Part shown: in pieces, positions 853 to 55,832 of the stretch
How the letters are laid out: each line of letters starts with the position of its first letter
How positions within the stretch are numbered: the stretch's first letter is position 1
Assembly (NCBI GenBank): GCA_003599575.1
Contig: QZKV01000090.1
Span: forward strand, 1 to 64,000
Source of the DNA: Desulfobacteraceae bacterium
GTDB lineage: Bacteria > Desulfobacterota > Desulfobacteria > Desulfobacterales > Desulfosarcinaceae
Length of the DNA stretch: 64,000 bases
Reading direction: 5' to 3'
Notes under the pieces: model-generated
Database searches by the model: none
What the model saw: the letters and a program-made list of their open reading frames with translations, nothing else
What the model was told of the DNA's origin: nothing
Position numbers and translations under genes: made by a program

Positions 853-1632
853 ATGGAACCGAACCCTGAAAGCCCTGCTCGAGAAGATGATCTGACCATC
901 CGCACGCCCGAAGGGGTCGCCTTTTCCCTGCCCCTGGCCGGACCGGTCAGTCGTTTTTTGGCCTGGCTGCTGGATTTGGCCTGTCTATCGGTGCTGTTCA
1001 AGCTGATCTCGGTCGTCGTAAATCTTCTCGGCCTCGTCAGCCGCGATGTCTCCCAGGCGTTTGGCATCGTGCTTTTCTTTGCGCTCAACATCGGCTACTC
1101 CATTTGCCTGGAATGGTTTTGGAACGGTCAGACCGCCGGTAAGCGCGTGTTGGGCCTGCGTGTCATGGATATCAACGGCCTGCGCATACGGCCCAGCCAG
1201 ATCGTGCTCCGCAACCTTCTGCGCGCCGTGGACAGTTTGCCGCTCTTCTACCTCGTGGGGGGATCGGTGTGCCTGGCGACCCGCCACCTGCAGAGGTTGG
1301 GAGATCTGGCCGCCAACACCATCGTGGTCAAGATCGCTCAGGCTGTCGAGCCCCGGGTCGATCGGGTTCTTGCGCCGCATCATTACAATTCGTTGCGGCA
1401 CTATCCACATCTGGTCGCGCGACTGCGCCAGCAAATCAGCCCCACAGAAGCGCGTGCGGCCCTGCAAGCCCTATTGCGCAGGGACGAGTTGATTCCTGCG
1501 GCGCGCGTGGAGTTGTTCTGCCTGATGGCGGATCATTTCAAAACCGCGGTAAAGTTCCCTCAGGATGCCTTGGAGGGGATTTCCGATGAACAGTACGTGC
1601 GGGATGTGACCGACGTGCTCTTCAGAAGATGA
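853..1632 (+). CDS. RDD family membrane protein
   Basis: This 259-residue protein has the RDD signature in its first half: a conserved Arg in the first membrane segment (VSRFLAWLLDLACL), a second segment, then the GKRVLGLRVMDINGLRIRP block and a third segment with DSLPLFYLVGG. The C-terminal 100 residues are hydrophilic and probably cytoplasmic. The ATG follows AAAGGA with about 8 bases between. It lies downstream of the SpoIIM-like gene, an arrangement seen in many proteobacteria, so the two may act together in the membrane. RDD proteins have been linked to ion transport in a few cases, but no substrate can be read from the sequence. Confidence 0.88.
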   Translation: MEPNPESPAREDDLTIRTPEGVAFSLPLAGPVSRFLAWLLDLACLSVLFKLISVVVNLLGLVSRDVSQAFGIVLFFALNIGYSICLEWFWNGQTAGKRVLGLRVMDINGLRIRPSQIVLRNLLRAVDSLPLFYLVGGSVCLATRHLQRLGDLAANTIVVKIAQAVEPRVDRVLAPHHYNSLRHYPHLVARLRQQISPTEARAALQALLRRDELIPAARVELFCLMADHFKTAVKFPQDALEGISDEQYVRDVTDVLFRR

Positions 1633-12481: not shown

Positions 12482-12847
12482 TTATTTCTTGAAAAAGATG
12501 TAAAACGCCAGGCCGATCAGGACCAACGCAAAAATCCGTTTGAAACCGGCGGTTGATACATGCTCGACCATCCGGGCGCCGACCTGGGCGCCGATCACGC
12601 CGCCGATTCCCAGCAGAATGCCGGCCCGGTAATCCACGTTGGCCAATTTGTTATGCGCGACGAGGGCCGAGATGGAGATGATCAGGATGGCCATAAATGA
12701 GGTACCCACTGCTTTCTGGGCCGGATAACCCATGAATAAAAGCAGCGGGATCATCAGAAAACCGCCTCCCAAACCGGTAAAAGAGGCGCCAACCCCCACC
12801 AGGATGCCGAACACCACCATCAAGATCAAATTAAGATGTGCGCTCAT
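12482..12847 (-). CDS. Half-size TSUP (TauE/SafE, DUF81) membrane permease
   Basis: A 121-residue integral membrane protein starting at an ATG with AGGA upstream. It contains one TauE/SafE repeat: GVGASFTGLGGGFLMIPLLL, GTSFMAILIISISA, and GGVIGAQVGAR. Full-length members are about 250 residues with two such repeats, so this would have to dimerise to make a transporter. The family includes sulfite, sulfoacetate and other organosulfonate or C2/C3 anion exporters; the substrate here is unknown. It lies beside a lipoprotein gene on the same strand. No frameshift is evident at either end, so it appears a genuine short form. Confidence 0.82.
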   Translation of the reverse strand: MSAHLNLILMVVFGILVGVGASFTGLGGGFLMIPLLLFMGYPAQKAVGTSFMAILIISISALVAHNKLANVDYRAGILLGIGGVIGAQVGARMVEHVSTAGFKRIFALVLIGLAFYIFFKK

Positions 12848-12918
12848 ACGTTTGCTTCCTTTGGATGGATTGTAAGCCTGTCTTTTCGCAAGGCTTTCGT
12901 TCGTGCGCGGGCGCGAGC

Positions 12919-51276: not shown

Positions 51277-52488
51277 ATGCCGGTTTATCTTTGGGAAGGA
51301 AAAAATCGAAACAATCAAATTCAAAAAGGACAACTTGAAGCCGCAAATGAAGAAGCCGTCAAAGCCCATTTGAACCGGGTTCGAATCATCCCTAGCAAAG
51401 TCAAAAAAAAACCCAAAGATCTGTTTGAAGGTGTTTCTTTTCTTCAACCCAAGGTCAAAGAAAAAGACATCATCATATTTGCGCGCCAATTTTCGACCAT
51501 GATCGATGCCGGTCTGCCGATAATCCAGTGCATGGATATCCTCCATTCTCAGCAGGAAAACGCCACTTTCAAAAAAATGCTCAAGGATATCAAAGATCAA
51601 GTCGAAGGCGGCTCCACTTTTGCGGATGCTTTAAAGCGTTATCCCAAGCATTTCGATAACCTGTTTGTCAACATGATTACGGCCGGCGAGGCCGGCGGTA
51701 TTTTGGATGTGATTTTGAAGCGCTTGGCCGGGTATATGGAAAAAGCGGCCCGCCTCAAACGCAAAGTCAAAGGAGCCATGGTCTACCCCGCCATCACCAT
51801 TGCCGTGGCGGTCATCGTGGTCGCGGTTATTCTGATCTTTGTCATTCCGGTATTCCAGGAGATGTTTGCCGACTTCGGCAGCAGTCTTCCCGGCCCGACA
51901 CTCATCGTTATTGCCATGAGCGATTTCGTCAAATCGAAAGTCCATTTCATGGCCATCGGCCTGGTCATCTTCTTCTTTGCCTTCAAAAAGTACTACAGCA
52001 CCAATAAAGGTCGCCTGGTGGTCGATGCCGCCATACTCAAACTGCCGGTGTTCGGCATGTTGCTACGTAAGGTGGCCGTGGCCAAATTCACCCGCACCAT
52101 GGGCACCATGCTGGGAAGCGGTGTCGCCATTCTGGAAGCACTCGACATCGTGGCCAAGACCGCCGGCAACAAAATCGTTGAAAAGGCCATTTACACGGTG
52201 CGTTCCGGTATTTCCGAGGGGCGCACCATGGCCGATCCTCTGCAAGCGAGCGGCGTCTTCCCGCCCATGGTCTGCCAGATGATCGCAGTGGGTGAATCGA
52301 CGGGTGCGCTCGATGCCATGCTGGAAAAGATCGCGGATTTCTACGATGAAGAAGTGGATCAGGCTGTAGAGAATCTCACCGCCATGATCGAACCGATGAT
52401 GATTGTCTTTCTGGGAGTGATTGTAGGCGGATTGATTGTTTCCATGTATCTGCCCATCTTCAAAATGGCCGGCGCAGTCGGTGGTTGA
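51277..52488 (+). CDS. pilC: Type IV pilus inner-membrane platform protein
   Basis: A 403-residue inner-membrane protein with two GspF/PilC domains. Signature elements: the DIIIFARQFSTMIDAGLPI start of the first T2SSF domain, KVAVAKFTRTMGTMLGSGVAILEALD in the second, and three to four membrane segments. It supports pilus extension with PilB and the minor pilins. It is the first gene of a plus-strand pair with a pilS-like gene; pilA, pilB and pilT are not in this window. Confidence 0.93.
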   Translation: MPVYLWEGKNRNNQIQKGQLEAANEEAVKAHLNRVRIIPSKVKKKPKDLFEGVSFLQPKVKEKDIIIFARQFSTMIDAGLPIIQCMDILHSQQENATFKKMLKDIKDQVEGGSTFADALKRYPKHFDNLFVNMITAGEAGGILDVILKRLAGYMEKAARLKRKVKGAMVYPAITIAVAVIVVAVILIFVIPVFQEMFADFGSSLPGPTLIVIAMSDFVKSKVHFMAIGLVIFFFAFKKYYSTNKGRLVVDAAILKLPVFGMLLRKVAVAKFTRTMGTMLGSGVAILEALDIVAKTAGNKIVEKAIYTVRSGISEGRTMADPLQASGVFPPMVCQMIAVGESTGALDAMLEKIADFYDEEVDQAVENLTAMIEPMMIVFLGVIVGGLIVSMYLPIFKMAGAVGG

Positions 52489-53855
52489 TCTTGCGGGGGA
52501 TCACAACATCATTTGATCTCGAGGTTGACCAAAACGCAGTGGCGAGCTCCATCTTTACATCGCACGATTTTGCATCCGCATCCGGAACCCATCTTAAATT
52601 GAGATGGTTGATGTTTGTCCGGGTCGTCTTCACTGCCATCCTGTTGGGCGCCACACTGATTTTTCAGATGCGCCACCGCGATCAGGCCGTTGAGCCGGTG
52701 GTCACAATCTTTTATTTCTTGATTGCGGCCGTGTTCTTCCTCTCCATCCTGTATGGGATGATATTTCAGCGCGTCAAACGTCAGGCGCTTTTTGCCTACA
52801 TTCAGATAGGCATCGATTCCTTCGTTGTCTCCTTGATCATTTTGATCACAGGCGGTTTCTACAGCATGTTCTCCTTCCTTTATCTGGTCGTGATCATATA
52901 CGCCAGTATGATCTTATACATGAAAGGCGGCATCGCGCTGGCCCTGATCAGCAGTCTTCAATTTGCCGGACTGATATCGCTGCAGTTCCTTTCCATCATT
53001 CCCTTTGCGGATGCGGTTGAGGGATCCGGAGCCTTCAATCCGACCATCATGCAGATCATCTATAAGGTTCTCATTACCTCTTCGGCTTGCTTTGCAGTGG
53101 CATTTCTGAGCGGGTTGCTGACCGAGCAGAATCGAAAATCCCAGCACGAGCTCCGCGCCATGGAAGACCATGTGAAGAGGGTCGAAAAAATGGCCTATAT
53201 GGGAGAAATGGCTGCCGGGCTGGCGCATGAAATCAAAAATCCGTTGGCTTCGCTGGTGGGCTCTATTCAGTTGCTGAGAGAGGATTTACATTACGATCAG
53301 GATCATCAGCGGCTGATGGAAATCGTCTTACGGGAAACGGACCGGCTCAGTACGCTGGTCAATGAATTCCTGCTTTTTGCGCGGCCGCCGGCGGGTAAAC
53401 CGGAGATGTTGCATCTCCAGCAAGCCATTGAGGAAATCACCAGCCTGTTTGAAAGAGATACGAATCATTGCAAACGTTTCTCCCTCAAAAAGGCGCTTGA
53501 TCCGGATGTGCATGTTGTTATGGACCCCGCCCACCTGCGCCAGGTGCTCTGGAACCTTTTATTGAATGCGGCCGAGGCCGTATCGCCTGGAGGTTCGATT
53601 GCGCTGCATACGATCGCGCTCAAGAACAACGAGGTGAGTATTCAGGTGCATGACGACGGGTGCGGCATGCCACCGGAAGTAGCCGGTAAAATATTCAATC
53701 CATTCTTTACCACAAAGCCGGACGGTACAGGTTTGGGATTGTCCATCGTTCATCGCATTCTTGAGGCGTATGAAAGTCGTCTGGATGTGCAAACCGAGCT
53801 GGGGTGCGGCACGACATTTTCTTTTTCTCTGAAGAGGTCTGGAAAAATCCGCTAG
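52485..53855 (+). CDS. pilS: PilS-like sensor histidine kinase
   Basis: A 456-residue protein with an N-terminal membrane region of about six segments, followed by a HisKA domain (GEMAAGLAHEIKNPLASLVGS) and an HATPase domain with WNLLLNAAEAV, DDGCGMPPEVAG and GTGLGLSIVH. Layout matches PilS, the kinase controlling pilin transcription through PilR and sigma-54. The start is a TTG overlapping the pilC stop; no strong Shine-Dalgarno. The usual pilR partner is not downstream; instead a sigma-54 promoter follows. Confidence 0.85.
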   Translation: MILRGITTSFDLEVDQNAVASSIFTSHDFASASGTHLKLRWLMFVRVVFTAILLGATLIFQMRHRDQAVEPVVTIFYFLIAAVFFLSILYGMIFQRVKRQALFAYIQIGIDSFVVSLIILITGGFYSMFSFLYLVVIIYASMILYMKGGIALALISSLQFAGLISLQFLSIIPFADAVEGSGAFNPTIMQIIYKVLITSSACFAVAFLSGLLTEQNRKSQHELRAMEDHVKRVEKMAYMGEMAAGLAHEIKNPLASLVGSIQLLREDLHYDQDHQRLMEIVLRETDRLSTLVNEFLLFARPPAGKPEMLHLQQAIEEITSLFERDTNHCKRFSLKKALDPDVHVVMDPAHLRQVLWNLLLNAAEAVSPGGSIALHTIALKNNEVSIQVHDDGCGMPPEVAGKIFNPFFTTKPDGTGLGLSIVHRILEAYESRLDVQTELGCGTTFSFSLKRSGKIR

Positions 53856-54023
53856 TTTCCCAACTGGCATCCCGCCATGATGTTATACGATTGTAGCGCC
53901 TGGGTGTAAAATATTTCATACACTTTCTGCTCCCCTTCACATTCTATAAGCTGTCGCCAACCCAACTAAGGCTTCCTGCTGGGACTTATGCGCTAAAAAA
54001 CGGCGCGCGCGTTTAGCATATAG
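53856..54023. other. Gene-free stretch between pilS and the sigma-54 promoter
   Basis: About 170 bases with no gene or clear hairpin. Possible sites for an upstream-binding activator of the sigma-54 promoter would lie here, but none is recognised. Confidence 0.4.
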
Positions 54024-54039
54024 TGGCACGCATGTTGCT
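54024..54039 (+). promoter_or_regulatory. Sigma-54 (-24/-12) promoter
   Basis: TGGCACG, four bases, then TTGCT, with the GG and GC pairs 12 bases apart. This is a full match to the sigma-54 consensus (TGGCACG-N4-TTGCA/T). The expected transcription start is about 54050, just upstream of the c-di-GMP riboswitch. A sigma-54 activator such as PilR would be needed. Confidence 0.82.
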
Positions 54040-54089
54040 TATGAATAGCGCAATAGCTTTACCTAAGCTCTTTTTAACATAGCTCGAAA

Positions 54090-54170
54090 AAGGCAAATCA
54101 TCCGAAAGGGTGAGACGCAAAGCCACTGGCCTAATTCCTGTTCCAGGGAAATGGCGGCAGGGTTGCCGGG
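54090..54170 (+). ncRNA. c-di-GMP-I (GEMM-I) riboswitch aptamer
   Basis: All conserved elements of GEMM-I are present in order: GGCAAA (54092-54097), the P1b hairpin TCATCC-GAAA-GGGTGA with its GAAA tetraloop (54098-54113), GACGCAAAGCCAC (54113-54125), GGCCTAA, AAATGGC in the receptor side (54149-54155) and GGCAGGGTTGCC closing (54155-54167). GGCAA at the start pairs with TTGCC at the end. It lies 60 bases before the ATG of the surface protein gene. Confidence 0.92.
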
Positions 54171-54177
54171 CGAAGGC

Positions 54178-54230
54178 GACATCTCACAATCGAGACGCCG
54201 TTCGCACGGAACGAATCGATGGGAGATGTC
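54178..54230 (+). promoter_or_regulatory. Putative expression platform: anti-Shine-Dalgarno and ribosome binding site
   Basis: GACATCTC (54178-54185) is exactly complementary to GAGATGTC (54223-54230), which contains the GGGAG ribosome site's final bases and directly abuts the ATG at 54231. A second complement (TTCG/CGAA) lies inside. Pairing would hide the ribosome site, so the riboswitch may act on translation. Confidence 0.65.
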
Positions 54231-55832
54231 ATGTTTAAAAAACGCTTATCCCTTCCAAAAATTTTGCTGGCGACCGGATTTATTTGGCTCATCGCATTTT
54301 CTGCAATTGTCTCGGCCGCACAGGTCACGCTACAATGGGATGCCATTGATACGGTCCCGGACGGCTACCGGCTGTATCAACGCCTTTCAGGATTCGCTTA
54401 CAACTATACAGAACCTGCATGGTCCGGCACAGACACGACTTGTGTGATCGAAAATTTGACCCCCGGTGCTTCCTATTATTTTGTCGTTCGGGCCTTTAAA
54501 GGCGCCGACGAAAGCGCTGACTCCAACGAGGTGCAATATACTGCCGCCGTTATTGTGGAGCCCGATTTAGACAGCGATGGTGATGGATGGAATGATGCTT
54601 TGGATGCTTTTCCTTACGATTCGCTTGAATGGCTTGATACCGACAGCGACGGTATTGGCAACAATGCCGATGAGGACGATGACGGGGACGGAATGCCGGA
54701 CATATGGGAACTTGCGCATGGATTGAATCCGCTGGTTGATGATGCTTTTTCCGATTTGGATGGCGATGGAACTTTCAACATCGACGAATACACCCATGGC
54801 AGCGACCCGTCCAATGTGCCGGGTAATTCGGCACCGGCCAAACCCGTGCTCAGCCGGCCCCTCAATGGCGCCCGGACGGTCGGATTGACGCCCACCTTGA
54901 TGACCGGGGTTTTTGCGGATGCCGATGGCGACAGCCATGCCCGGACATGTTATCAGATCAGCACCACCCCCGATTTCTCTTCTCTGGTCTTTGAACGGAC
55001 TTACACGCGACATCTGACCGGGCTGAGGGTTCCGGATCTGATTCTTGATCCTGAAACCACTTATTACTGGCGCGTCAAGTTTTACGACAATCACAACAGT
55101 GCTTCCGAATGGTCCGATTTCTTCGAATTCGAGACCCTCGATTATGCGGCGGCCGGTGATGTGAACGGCAACGGTATCATCGATGTGCAGGAGTTCGGGC
55201 AAGCTTTCGATATCGATGAGGATGGCACGGCAGATGTACTTCAGTCCGGCCTGCAAGGGGTTGTCACAACGGATATTCACAATTTACGTGTGGCCGTGAA
55301 GCGTCTCAGTGCTGATGTGCAGGTGATCGGAGTAATGGCGCTGGATTTGGATGAACTGCCGCCGGCAAATAACCAACCCGAACAATTGACCGGGATCATC
55401 AGTTTCAAACTGCTGCTCTTGAATGATGCTTCAACCGCGGTGGTTACCATCTTCTTCTCACAGCCGGCGCCCCCCGATGCCAAATGGTTCAAGTTCGAGC
55501 CCGATGAGGGGTGGTCCGACTATGCCAATGCGGTTTTCAGCCAGGATCGCAAATCGGTCACCCTGGTTTTGGAAGATGGCGGTGTGGGTGATCAAGATGG
55601 CGTTCGCAACGGCATCATCGTCGATCCTTCCGGCCTGGGCTACAGCACTCAATCCTCGGAACCATCAAGTTACGCGCCGGCGGATGCGGGTGGATTGAGC
55701 TGCTTTATCGCTGCGGCATGGCCTGGAGATGCGAAATGGGCTGGCAAGGCGGTTCTCCTGCTGGCGGTGATAGCGATCCTGTTGGGGCAAGCGGCCCTTT
55801 CCCCAATCCGCTTCCGTGACCGCGAAATATAA
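54231..55832 (+). CDS. Secreted surface protein with FnIII, thrombospondin-3 repeats and C-terminal sorting segment
   Basis: A 533-residue protein. Signal peptide residues 1-30 (MFKKRLSLPKILLATG). An FnIII domain spans about 30-115 (QVTLQWDAIDTVPDGYRLYQ). Calcium-binding thrombospondin type 3 repeats follow (DSDGDGWNDALD, DTDSDGIGNNADEDDDGDG). A second FnIII-like domain is around 215-310, a dockerin-like EF segment near 312 (GDVNGNGIIDVQEF), and a choice-of-anchor-U-type domain up to 485. The C-terminus has a Gly-Leu-Ser-Cys-Phe-Ile segment and a membrane helix followed by Arg, the form of a CTERM sorting signal. It is controlled by the sigma-54 promoter and c-di-GMP riboswitch upstream. It is likely an adhesin or matrix component. 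Confidence 0.85.
   Translation: MFKKRLSLPKILLATGFIWLIAFSAIVSAAQVTLQWDAIDTVPDGYRLYQRLSGFAYNYTEPAWSGTDTTCVIENLTPGASYYFVVRAFKGADESADSNEVQYTAAVIVEPDLDSDGDGWNDALDAFPYDSLEWLDTDSDGIGNNADEDDDGDGMPDIWELAHGLNPLVDDAFSDLDGDGTFNIDEYTHGSDPSNVPGNSAPAKPVLSRPLNGARTVGLTPTLMTGVFADADGDSHARTCYQISTTPDFSSLVFERTYTRHLTGLRVPDLILDPETTYYWRVKFYDNHNSASEWSDFFEFETLDYAAAGDVNGNGIIDVQEFGQAFDIDEDGTADVLQSGLQGVVTTDIHNLRVAVKRLSADVQVIGVMALDLDELPPANNQPEQLTGIISFKLLLLNDASTAVVTIFFSQPAPPDAKWFKFEPDEGWSDYANAVFSQDRKSVTLVLEDGGVGDQDGVRNGIIVDPSGLGYSTQSSEPSSYAPADAGGLSCFIAAAWPGDAKWAGKAVLLLAVIAILLGQAALSPIRFRDREI

Follow-up and report, generated by a model that had tools for sequence, protein, structure and literature searches.

A putative two-key leader, combining a sigma-54 promoter and a c-di-GMP-I riboswitch, ahead of a surface-protein gene in the Desulfosarcinaceae

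Class I riboswitches for cyclic di-GMP (c-di-GMP), their translational OFF logic in Vc2, and the control of surface structures by sigma-54 are already known separately. Vc2 of Vibrio cholerae resembles the leader considered here in its class I aptamer, in translational control and in the use of P1 stability as the switch, and is called OFF in PMC9262584. The literature is not unanimous on the sign: Vc2 is cited as a positive regulator in PMC4545359. The two also differ in the gene controlled, which is VC1722 for Vc2 (PMC4545359). The present leader occupies positions 54024-54230 of the plus strand, ahead of ATG 54231 of a surface-protein gene, in a 64-kb stretch (hereafter the window) of contig QZKV01000090.1 from a Desulfobacteraceae bacterium.

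We propose, with moderate confidence, that this leader is a two-key unit, in which transcription by sigma-54 is followed by a co-transcriptional c-di-GMP switch that turns translation OFF. The elements on which the proposal is built are observed at the following positions.

54024-54039, plus strand: -24/-12 (sigma-54) promoter, TGGCAC-GCATG-TTGCT (TGGCACGCATGTTGCT), the sole exact match in the window
54082-54170, plus strand: c-di-GMP-I (GEMM-I) aptamer, RF01051, with P2 and P3 complete
54082-54086, plus strand: P1 5' strand GCUCG, pairing with 54167-54171
54166-54174, plus strand: aptamer 3' edge CCGGGCGAA, containing the P1 3' strand (54167-54171) and alternatively serving as 5' arm of the antisequestering helix AT
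54175-54199, plus strand: antisequester hairpin AS, pairing GGCG 54175-54178 with CGCC 54196-54199 and UCUC 54182-54185 with GAGA 54192-54195
54178-54185, plus strand: 5' arm of lock S, GACATCTC, exact complement of 54223-54230
54201-54209, plus strand: conserved 3' arm of helix AT, UUCGCACGG, with 54201-54205 pairing with 54170-54174 and 54207-54209 with 54166-54168
54221-54225, plus strand: ribosome binding site GGGAG, 5 nt before ATG 54231
54223-54230, plus strand: 3' arm of lock S, GAGATGTC, covering GAG of GGGAG and abutting ATG 54231

The window holds one c-di-GMP-I aptamer, whereas the whole genome has six RF01051 matches. The complete GEMM-I aptamer that a sequence-only reading of this DNA had proposed is borne out by the RF01051 match at 54082-54170 on the plus strand, which scores 81.3 bits (gathering score 35; E 2e-14) and covers model positions 1-87 of 87. 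The GGCAAA and GCC ligand-contact motifs are invariant in 25 aligned leaders of the window's type, the window included, with G at the selectivity position and C at the other contact. We take this G to be the equivalent of Vc2 G20. In Vc2, G20 is described as a ligand-selectivity factor (PMC9262584). The window aptamer is a predicted c-di-GMP-I riboswitch, with c-di-GMP as its putative ligand. Elsewhere, four loci carry A at the selectivity position (AAGCAAA), namely L129 (G000:C66:2-90, in the same genome), L090, L108 and L159, and are possibly of the type (GEMM-Ib) that recognizes cyclic GMP-AMP (cGAMP).

The promoter pattern TGGCAC-N5-TTGCW has one exact match on either strand of the 64 kb, at 54024-54039, with the GG and GC of the -24/-12 elements present and their spacing correct; 42 bases separate its end from the start of the aptamer. 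Sigma-54 transcripts usually begin at a 12-nt offset, and the transcription start is expected near 54050 from this offset. When one mismatch is allowed, 6 places in the window match (5 beyond the exact one) against a mean of 3.1 in shuffles, and since 13 of 100 shuffles reach 6, the pattern alone is weak evidence in a single sequence. The case that the stack exceeds chance comes instead from counts across the family.

To this end, RF01051 was searched in 60 genomes including the window's own, 49 of which gave at least one match. From the 120 matches tabulated in 30 genomes of the family, 83 loci were taken, with weaker matches under-represented; they comprise 81 listed matches together with L005 and L006, and the listed matches G022:C1:6440608, G001:C15:887 and the second of the pair at G011:C1:2577800 were left out. 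The promoter count used 82 of these loci, as L129 begins at a contig end and was dropped. Each upstream region was scored for its best TGGCACG-N4-TTGCW site with weights of our own choosing (maximum 15; strict threshold at least 13, looser at least 12). The leaders were sorted into class A (the window type), class B, class C and others by eye, with the promoter scores known to the assigner.

A site scoring at least 13 lies within 100 nt upstream of the aptamer in 46 of the 82 loci, whereas 200 dinucleotide shuffles gave a mean of 0.4 and a maximum of 3. The promoter-bearing loci are spread over 24 of the 28 genomes examined, and 43 of the 46 sites lie 10-60 nt before the aptamer. Extending the profile to 400 nt places 44 of 48 forward matches at most 60 nt from the aptamer and yields only 3 reverse-strand matches, approximately 340-360 nt away. 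By class, the strict score is reached in 20/27 (A), 16/22 (B), 9/9 (C) and 1/24 (other), and the looser score in 25/27, 22/22, 9/9 and 3/24, respectively; pooled over classes A-C this amounts to 45 of 58 leaders by the strict and 56 of 58 by the looser score. The spacing of strict sites is specific to the class, being 16-24 nt in class C, 26-33 nt in class B (15/16) and 28-58 nt in class A (18/20). The consensus -24/-12 promoter of the sequence-only reading is both the sole exact match of the window and one of a kind that stands before 46 of the 82 family loci.

Outside the family, where 40 of 80 order-level matches were fetched (the first aptamer of tandem arrays), 4 of the 40 loci reach a score of 13 within 150 nt; two of these four, L149 and L153, combine what by eye is a class A-like leader with a homologue of the window's surface protein. 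At L160, L164, L165 and L181, all in order-level genomes, several c-di-GMP-I aptamers stand in tandem arrays. A degenerate DNA pattern of the class A leader matched 9 of 198 genomes of the phylum. Only the window match was exact, 3 mismatches being present in each of the remaining 8, and the pattern did no better than its reversed control, which gave 12 matches; being narrow, it would overlook leaders that have diverged.

The third element of the sequence-only reading, the complementarity of the 8 bases 54178-54185 to 54223-54230, is exact and lies over the end of the ribosome site. That reading gave no switching direction and lacked the competing hairpin 54166-54209, which is added here. In the hairpin, CCG.GCGAA at 54166-54174 pairs with UUCGC.CGG at 54201-54209, stacked on AS. 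AT shares 54167-54171 with the P1 3' strand, and AS shares 54178 and 54182-54185 with lock S; therefore P1 and AT are mutually exclusive, as are AT/AS and S, whereas P1 can coexist with S. Both alternatives are stable on their own: folding energies are -24.3 kcal/mol for the lock segment 54172-54236 (z -3.5, 0/200 shuffles as good) and -22.3 kcal/mol for 54163-54212, which forms a single long hairpin (z -3.9, 1/200 shuffles as good).

Conservation of the pairing was counted in a plain MAFFT alignment of 25 of the 27 class A loci (L122 and L126 were omitted as near-copies of L121 and L125), each fold being compared with 500 shuffles and with slid controls; the covariation counts refer to sequences and not to evolutionary events. 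For P1 plus S, 87.4% of cells are paired and the covariation score is 0.316 versus 0.229 in shuffles, both values being reached by 0/500; changes on both sides occur in 7 of 14 pairs (reached by 19/500 shuffles), and the slid controls are 29-52% paired. P1 by itself has 93.6% of cells paired, with both-side changes in 2 of 5 pairs. One pair of S, 111-166, lies outside the core of the ribosome site; 12 leaders have G-C and 8 have A-U there, and conservation of the ribosome site does not account for this covariation. For AT plus AS, 84.4% of cells are paired with a score of 0.214 versus 0.165 in shuffles (both 0/500), against 27-42% in slid controls, and RNAalifold yields most of helix AT unprompted from the plain alignment.

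Class B provides a second example with a different sequence. In its alignment of 20 of 22 loci (the leaders of L112 and L118 did not fit), the same topology is found: the post-aptamer run GGCAAACGGU pairs with ACCGNUUGUC and encloses an anti-ribosome-site strand, and the lock covers GGAGG with a score reached by 0/500 shuffles. The omitted L112 lies next to a PilS gene and is possibly a diverged member of class A.

Taken together, the window leader appears to be a riboswitch of the ribosome-site sequestering kind, having a conserved lock helix and a competing fold that shares a strand of the aptamer. Because all three elements recur together in relatives, their stacking is no coincidence of a single sequence, and this recurrence, along with the conserved ribosome-site pairing, supports the earlier suggestion that sigma-54 transcription is probably joined here to c-di-GMP-dependent translation. 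Translation is taken as the control point because the ribosome-site pairing is conserved, no terminator-like site was found in 53856-54260, and the competitor hairpin is conserved.

In the mechanism that we favour, RNA polymerase with sigma-54 and an NtrC-type activator, for which a PilR-like partner of the adjacent PilS-type kinase is a candidate, would turn the first key by starting transcription near 54050. The second key would be c-di-GMP, which would set the pairing partner of the aptamer 3' edge 54166-54174 as the aptamer emerges. When c-di-GMP is lacking, this edge would pair with 54201-54209, AS would capture the anti-ribosome-site strand 54178-54185, and the ribosome site would be open (ON). 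When c-di-GMP is bound, P1 (54082-54086/54167-54171) would be held, the antisequester would be blocked, and 54178-54185 would close on 54223-54230 (OFF). The surface protein would then be made if the activator is on and c-di-GMP is low. From this anatomy c-di-GMP is predicted to turn translation OFF, a sign that we infer from which helices exclude one another.

Energy modelling is consistent with this order of events. When the transcript is cut just after AT, so that the 3' arm of the lock is absent, the AT state beats P1 without ligand in 23 of 25 class A leaders, and an assumed ligand bonus of 8 kcal/mol would reverse 20 of the 23. The exceptions are L084 and L092 and the extremes are L077 and L079, all four of which fit the alignment badly. 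Where the modelled states differ in the openness of the ribosome site, more leaders open without ligand (e.g. L092, L105, L125, L099 and L140) than with it (L095, L128 and L130).

Several results weigh against the OFF mechanism. Equilibrium folding failed as a direct read-out of ON and OFF: folding with and without the ligand constraint, which the sequence-only reading had suggested as a check, recovers the lock in the ligand-free fold of the whole leader 54050-54260, but the ribosome site is buried in both states for most leaders. Whether or not P1 is formed, its modelled accessibility stays under 0.4 in 25/25 class A and 20/22 class B leaders and rises in only some of them when ligand is absent; at full length without ligand, 20 of 25 class A leaders favour P1 plus lock. 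Since the lock is stable at full length even when ligand-free, the ON state would depend on kinetics. On the comparative side, the both-side changes in AT/AS (5 of 13 pairs) are reached by 72/500 shuffles and also when the fold is slid by -2, and sliding it by +2 equals the 20 cells with changes on both sides; AT/AS is thus backed by cell pairing and score, while these two counting measures fail to separate it from slid controls. The largest covariation swaps divide along two clades and could each reflect one event, the arms of L084, L092, L077 and L079 are poorly aligned, and AT/AS is weaker in class B, where its score is reached by 16/500 shuffles and its pairing percentage by 14/500.

Some of the same facts could be read with the opposite sign, such that c-di-GMP opens the ribosome site. 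An ON switch is what one would expect for a surface protein of a sessile cell, and the lock is so stable alone that it may be the ligand-free ground state; in addition, RNAalifold offers a 3-bp pairing of the P1 5' strand with the ribosome site, which would reverse the sign if real, and the class B leaders L095, L128 and L130 are modelled more open with P1 formed. However, P1 and the lock do not overlap, so that ligand binding cannot break the lock, and P1 excludes the antisequester instead. Class B shows the same topology, and Vc2 is named a translational OFF switch in PMC9262584, despite its citation as positive in PMC4545359. We therefore consider the ON switch unlikely. Rather less probable still is that the riboswitch acts mainly on transcription or on RNA stability, for example by exposure to Rho or an RNase, with the ribosome-site pairing being secondary. 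By visual inspection, other riboswitch leaders in the family resemble terminators, and translationally shut mRNAs are often targets of Rho. Against this, no intrinsic terminator was found in 53856-54260, so a terminator after the aptamer was rejected, and the conserved 3' arm of class A runs from the ribosome site toward the start codon.

Two further alternatives concern the identity of the parts, and we give both of them very little credence. One is that the aptamer is genuine while the -24/-12 site is a chance match and another promoter drives the gene. The five one-mismatch sites elsewhere in the window speak for chance, whereas the 46 loci found against 0.4 expected, and their short distance from the aptamer, speak against it; moreover, a consensus scan of 53856-54260 found one sigma-70-like site on the plus strand, inside the leader at 54074-54101, and none upstream of the leader. 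The other is that the RNA senses 3',3'-cGAMP rather than c-di-GMP, as might be argued from the A found at the selectivity position in 3 of 83 family loci, one of them in the window's genome, and in 1 of 40 order-level loci. The 25 aligned class A leaders, the window among them, all have G at this position, which is presumed to be the equivalent of Vc2 G20.

Apart from the leader, the two-key model involves the controlled gene and its upstream neighbours.

54231-55832, plus strand: controlled gene, encoding a 533-aa surface protein with signal peptide, fn3, TSP3-like Asp-rich stretch, Ig-like domain, choice-of-anchor U and a C-terminal CFI, hydrophobic and basic tail
52485-53855, plus strand: PilS-like sensor kinase (PF25323, HisKA, HATPase_c), conserved upstream neighbour
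51277-52488, plus strand: PilC-like protein (T2SSF; best NCBIfam match PilC), conserved neighbour upstream of PilS

A second in-frame start codon exists at ATG 54219, but only ATG 54231 has proper spacing from the ribosome site. The product matches choice-of-anchor U (NF041766) with 75.6 bits against a curated cut-off of 32, as do 22 of 23 class A products scanned (E 0.01), and CF of the C-terminal tail is at least 90% conserved; the signal peptide and tail were judged by eye, and TSP3 is below the Pfam cut-off. The adhesin-like protein of the earlier reading is accordingly better described as a probable surface-anchored fn3/choice-of-anchor-U protein, and the adhesin label is no firmer than these domains. 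Two class A loci, L079 (G000:C118:10322-14412, aptamer at contig 12822-12912, minus strand) and L077 (G010:C3:746260-750351), differ in that the leader ATG opens a frame of 30 or 33 codons, and this frame overlaps what may be the beginning of a longer protein of secreted type (ATGNNNCTGA). This arrangement suggests a riboswitch-controlled leader peptide with translational coupling.

The gene order pilC-pilS-leader-surface gene is observed in 12/12 selected class A regions of 19 kb (L260-L271), with about 2 kb between pilS and leader in 2 of them. A PilS-like kinase homologue of 43-66% identity is found upstream of the aptamer in 17 of 82 other loci, up to 1.5 kb being covered (a match at 28% in L132 was excluded), and the NCBIfam match of the PilC-like protein, 567.7 bits, is under the model cut-off of 700. 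The usual output of a PilS kinase is an NtrC-type activator of sigma-54, which makes a link between kinase and promoter attractive. The genome of the window (estimated contamination 6.93%) encodes RpoN, with two PF04552 matches at G000:C184:7201-7677 and G000:C69:15589-16065; given the contamination, a second source is possible for this pair. It also has 67 matches to the sigma-54-activator family, 58 of them above 100 bits; this family matches in all 14 control genomes as well, so that weak matches mean little.

The activator part of the model is countered by two negative results. No activator motif of the GESGTGKE or GAFTGA type is present in the window or in the 12 class A regions, by which a nearby PilR was rejected. 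Neither did a search for 6-8-mers and gapped palindromes, covering the 198 nt that precede the promoter at 55 loci (score at least 12.5), return a site-like activator binding motif. A/T-rich words there are slightly above 10 shuffles (AAAAAT 37 versus a maximum of 33; TATAAAAA 13 versus 9), and the class B word AAAGTTCA occurs 6 times versus 5 in shuffles. FleQ is an activator that itself binds c-di-GMP (PMC7288161), and by analogy the activator here might possibly do the same.

A possible second target of the same control is represented by class C, nine loci of the genus (L119, L120, L133, L134, L136, L138, L143, L145 and, in the window's own genome, L005 on G000:C109 with its aptamer at 1501-1578, minus strand). 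A sigma-54 site lies 16-24 nt before an aptamer of a second subtype, the GCCAAAC/GGACGGAAAG type, followed by a terminator-like hairpin recognized by eye. The gene products carry PAS in 9/9, GGDEF in 8/9, GAF in 7 and PocR in 6 cases; the one product lacking GGDEF, that of L005, is truncated where the retrieved sequence stops. The same sigma-54/riboswitch pair thus appears to govern the synthesis of diguanylate cyclase, and c-di-GMP feedback is possible in such an arrangement. With less than even confidence, we suggest that the family has a dedicated regulon in which sigma-54 and c-di-GMP-I control act in series on two anchored surface-protein families (translational OFF) and, through a terminator-type platform, on a diguanylate cyclase. 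RpoN would perhaps act via PilS and a distant PilR, and synthesis of the messenger would itself lie inside the loop.

The significance of these leaders lies in the joining of one sigma factor class to one riboswitch class at a short, class-specific spacing in most leaders of three kinds within one family. Control would be layered, with an activator required at the promoter and a veto exerted by the RNA; two signals probably must agree before the protein is made. The arrangement may also tie c-di-GMP to a PilS-type kinase and to its own synthesis, and the 45 aligned natural variants of two translational platforms are material for how OFF switches evolve.

Among described systems, the 3',3'-cGAMP (GEMM-Ib) riboswitches of Geobacter share the aptamer fold and an association with pilus and surface genes (PMC6456294), but differ in their ligand and in the transcriptional ON logic described for pilM (PMC9262584); neither RpoN nor sigma54 is mentioned in the main text of PMC6456294. 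The RpoN regulon of Geobacter sulfurreducens exemplifies sigma-54 control in another anaerobe (PMC2725144), in a paper whose main text is without riboswitch, GGDEF and c-di-GMP. The merRNA of Bdellovibrio is a riboswitch RNA for c-di-GMP, described alongside the programme of a secondary sigma factor, which is however FliA (sigma 28), and the RNA is non-coding and proposed as a c-di-GMP reservoir (PMC3627812). In open-licence PubMed Central literature, where large result sets were sampled at the top only, we found no paper joining sigma-54 promoters with c-di-GMP-I riboswitches; the recurrent coupling appears to be new, absence from literature searches being no proof. The logic of competing strands has its counterpart in Cd1 of Clostridioides difficile, with strands P, A, T and H, in which strand A is the partner of T in the ligand-free RNA and strand H its partner in the bound RNA, giving an OFF switch (PMC9262584). 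Cd1 differs in that H is a terminator strand, where the window has the ribosome site, and in that no P1 was detected in it (PMC9262584). If the terminator strand of the P-A-T-H scheme is replaced by a ribosome-site strand, the OFF reading of the present leader is obtained, in agreement with the OFF assignment of Vc2.

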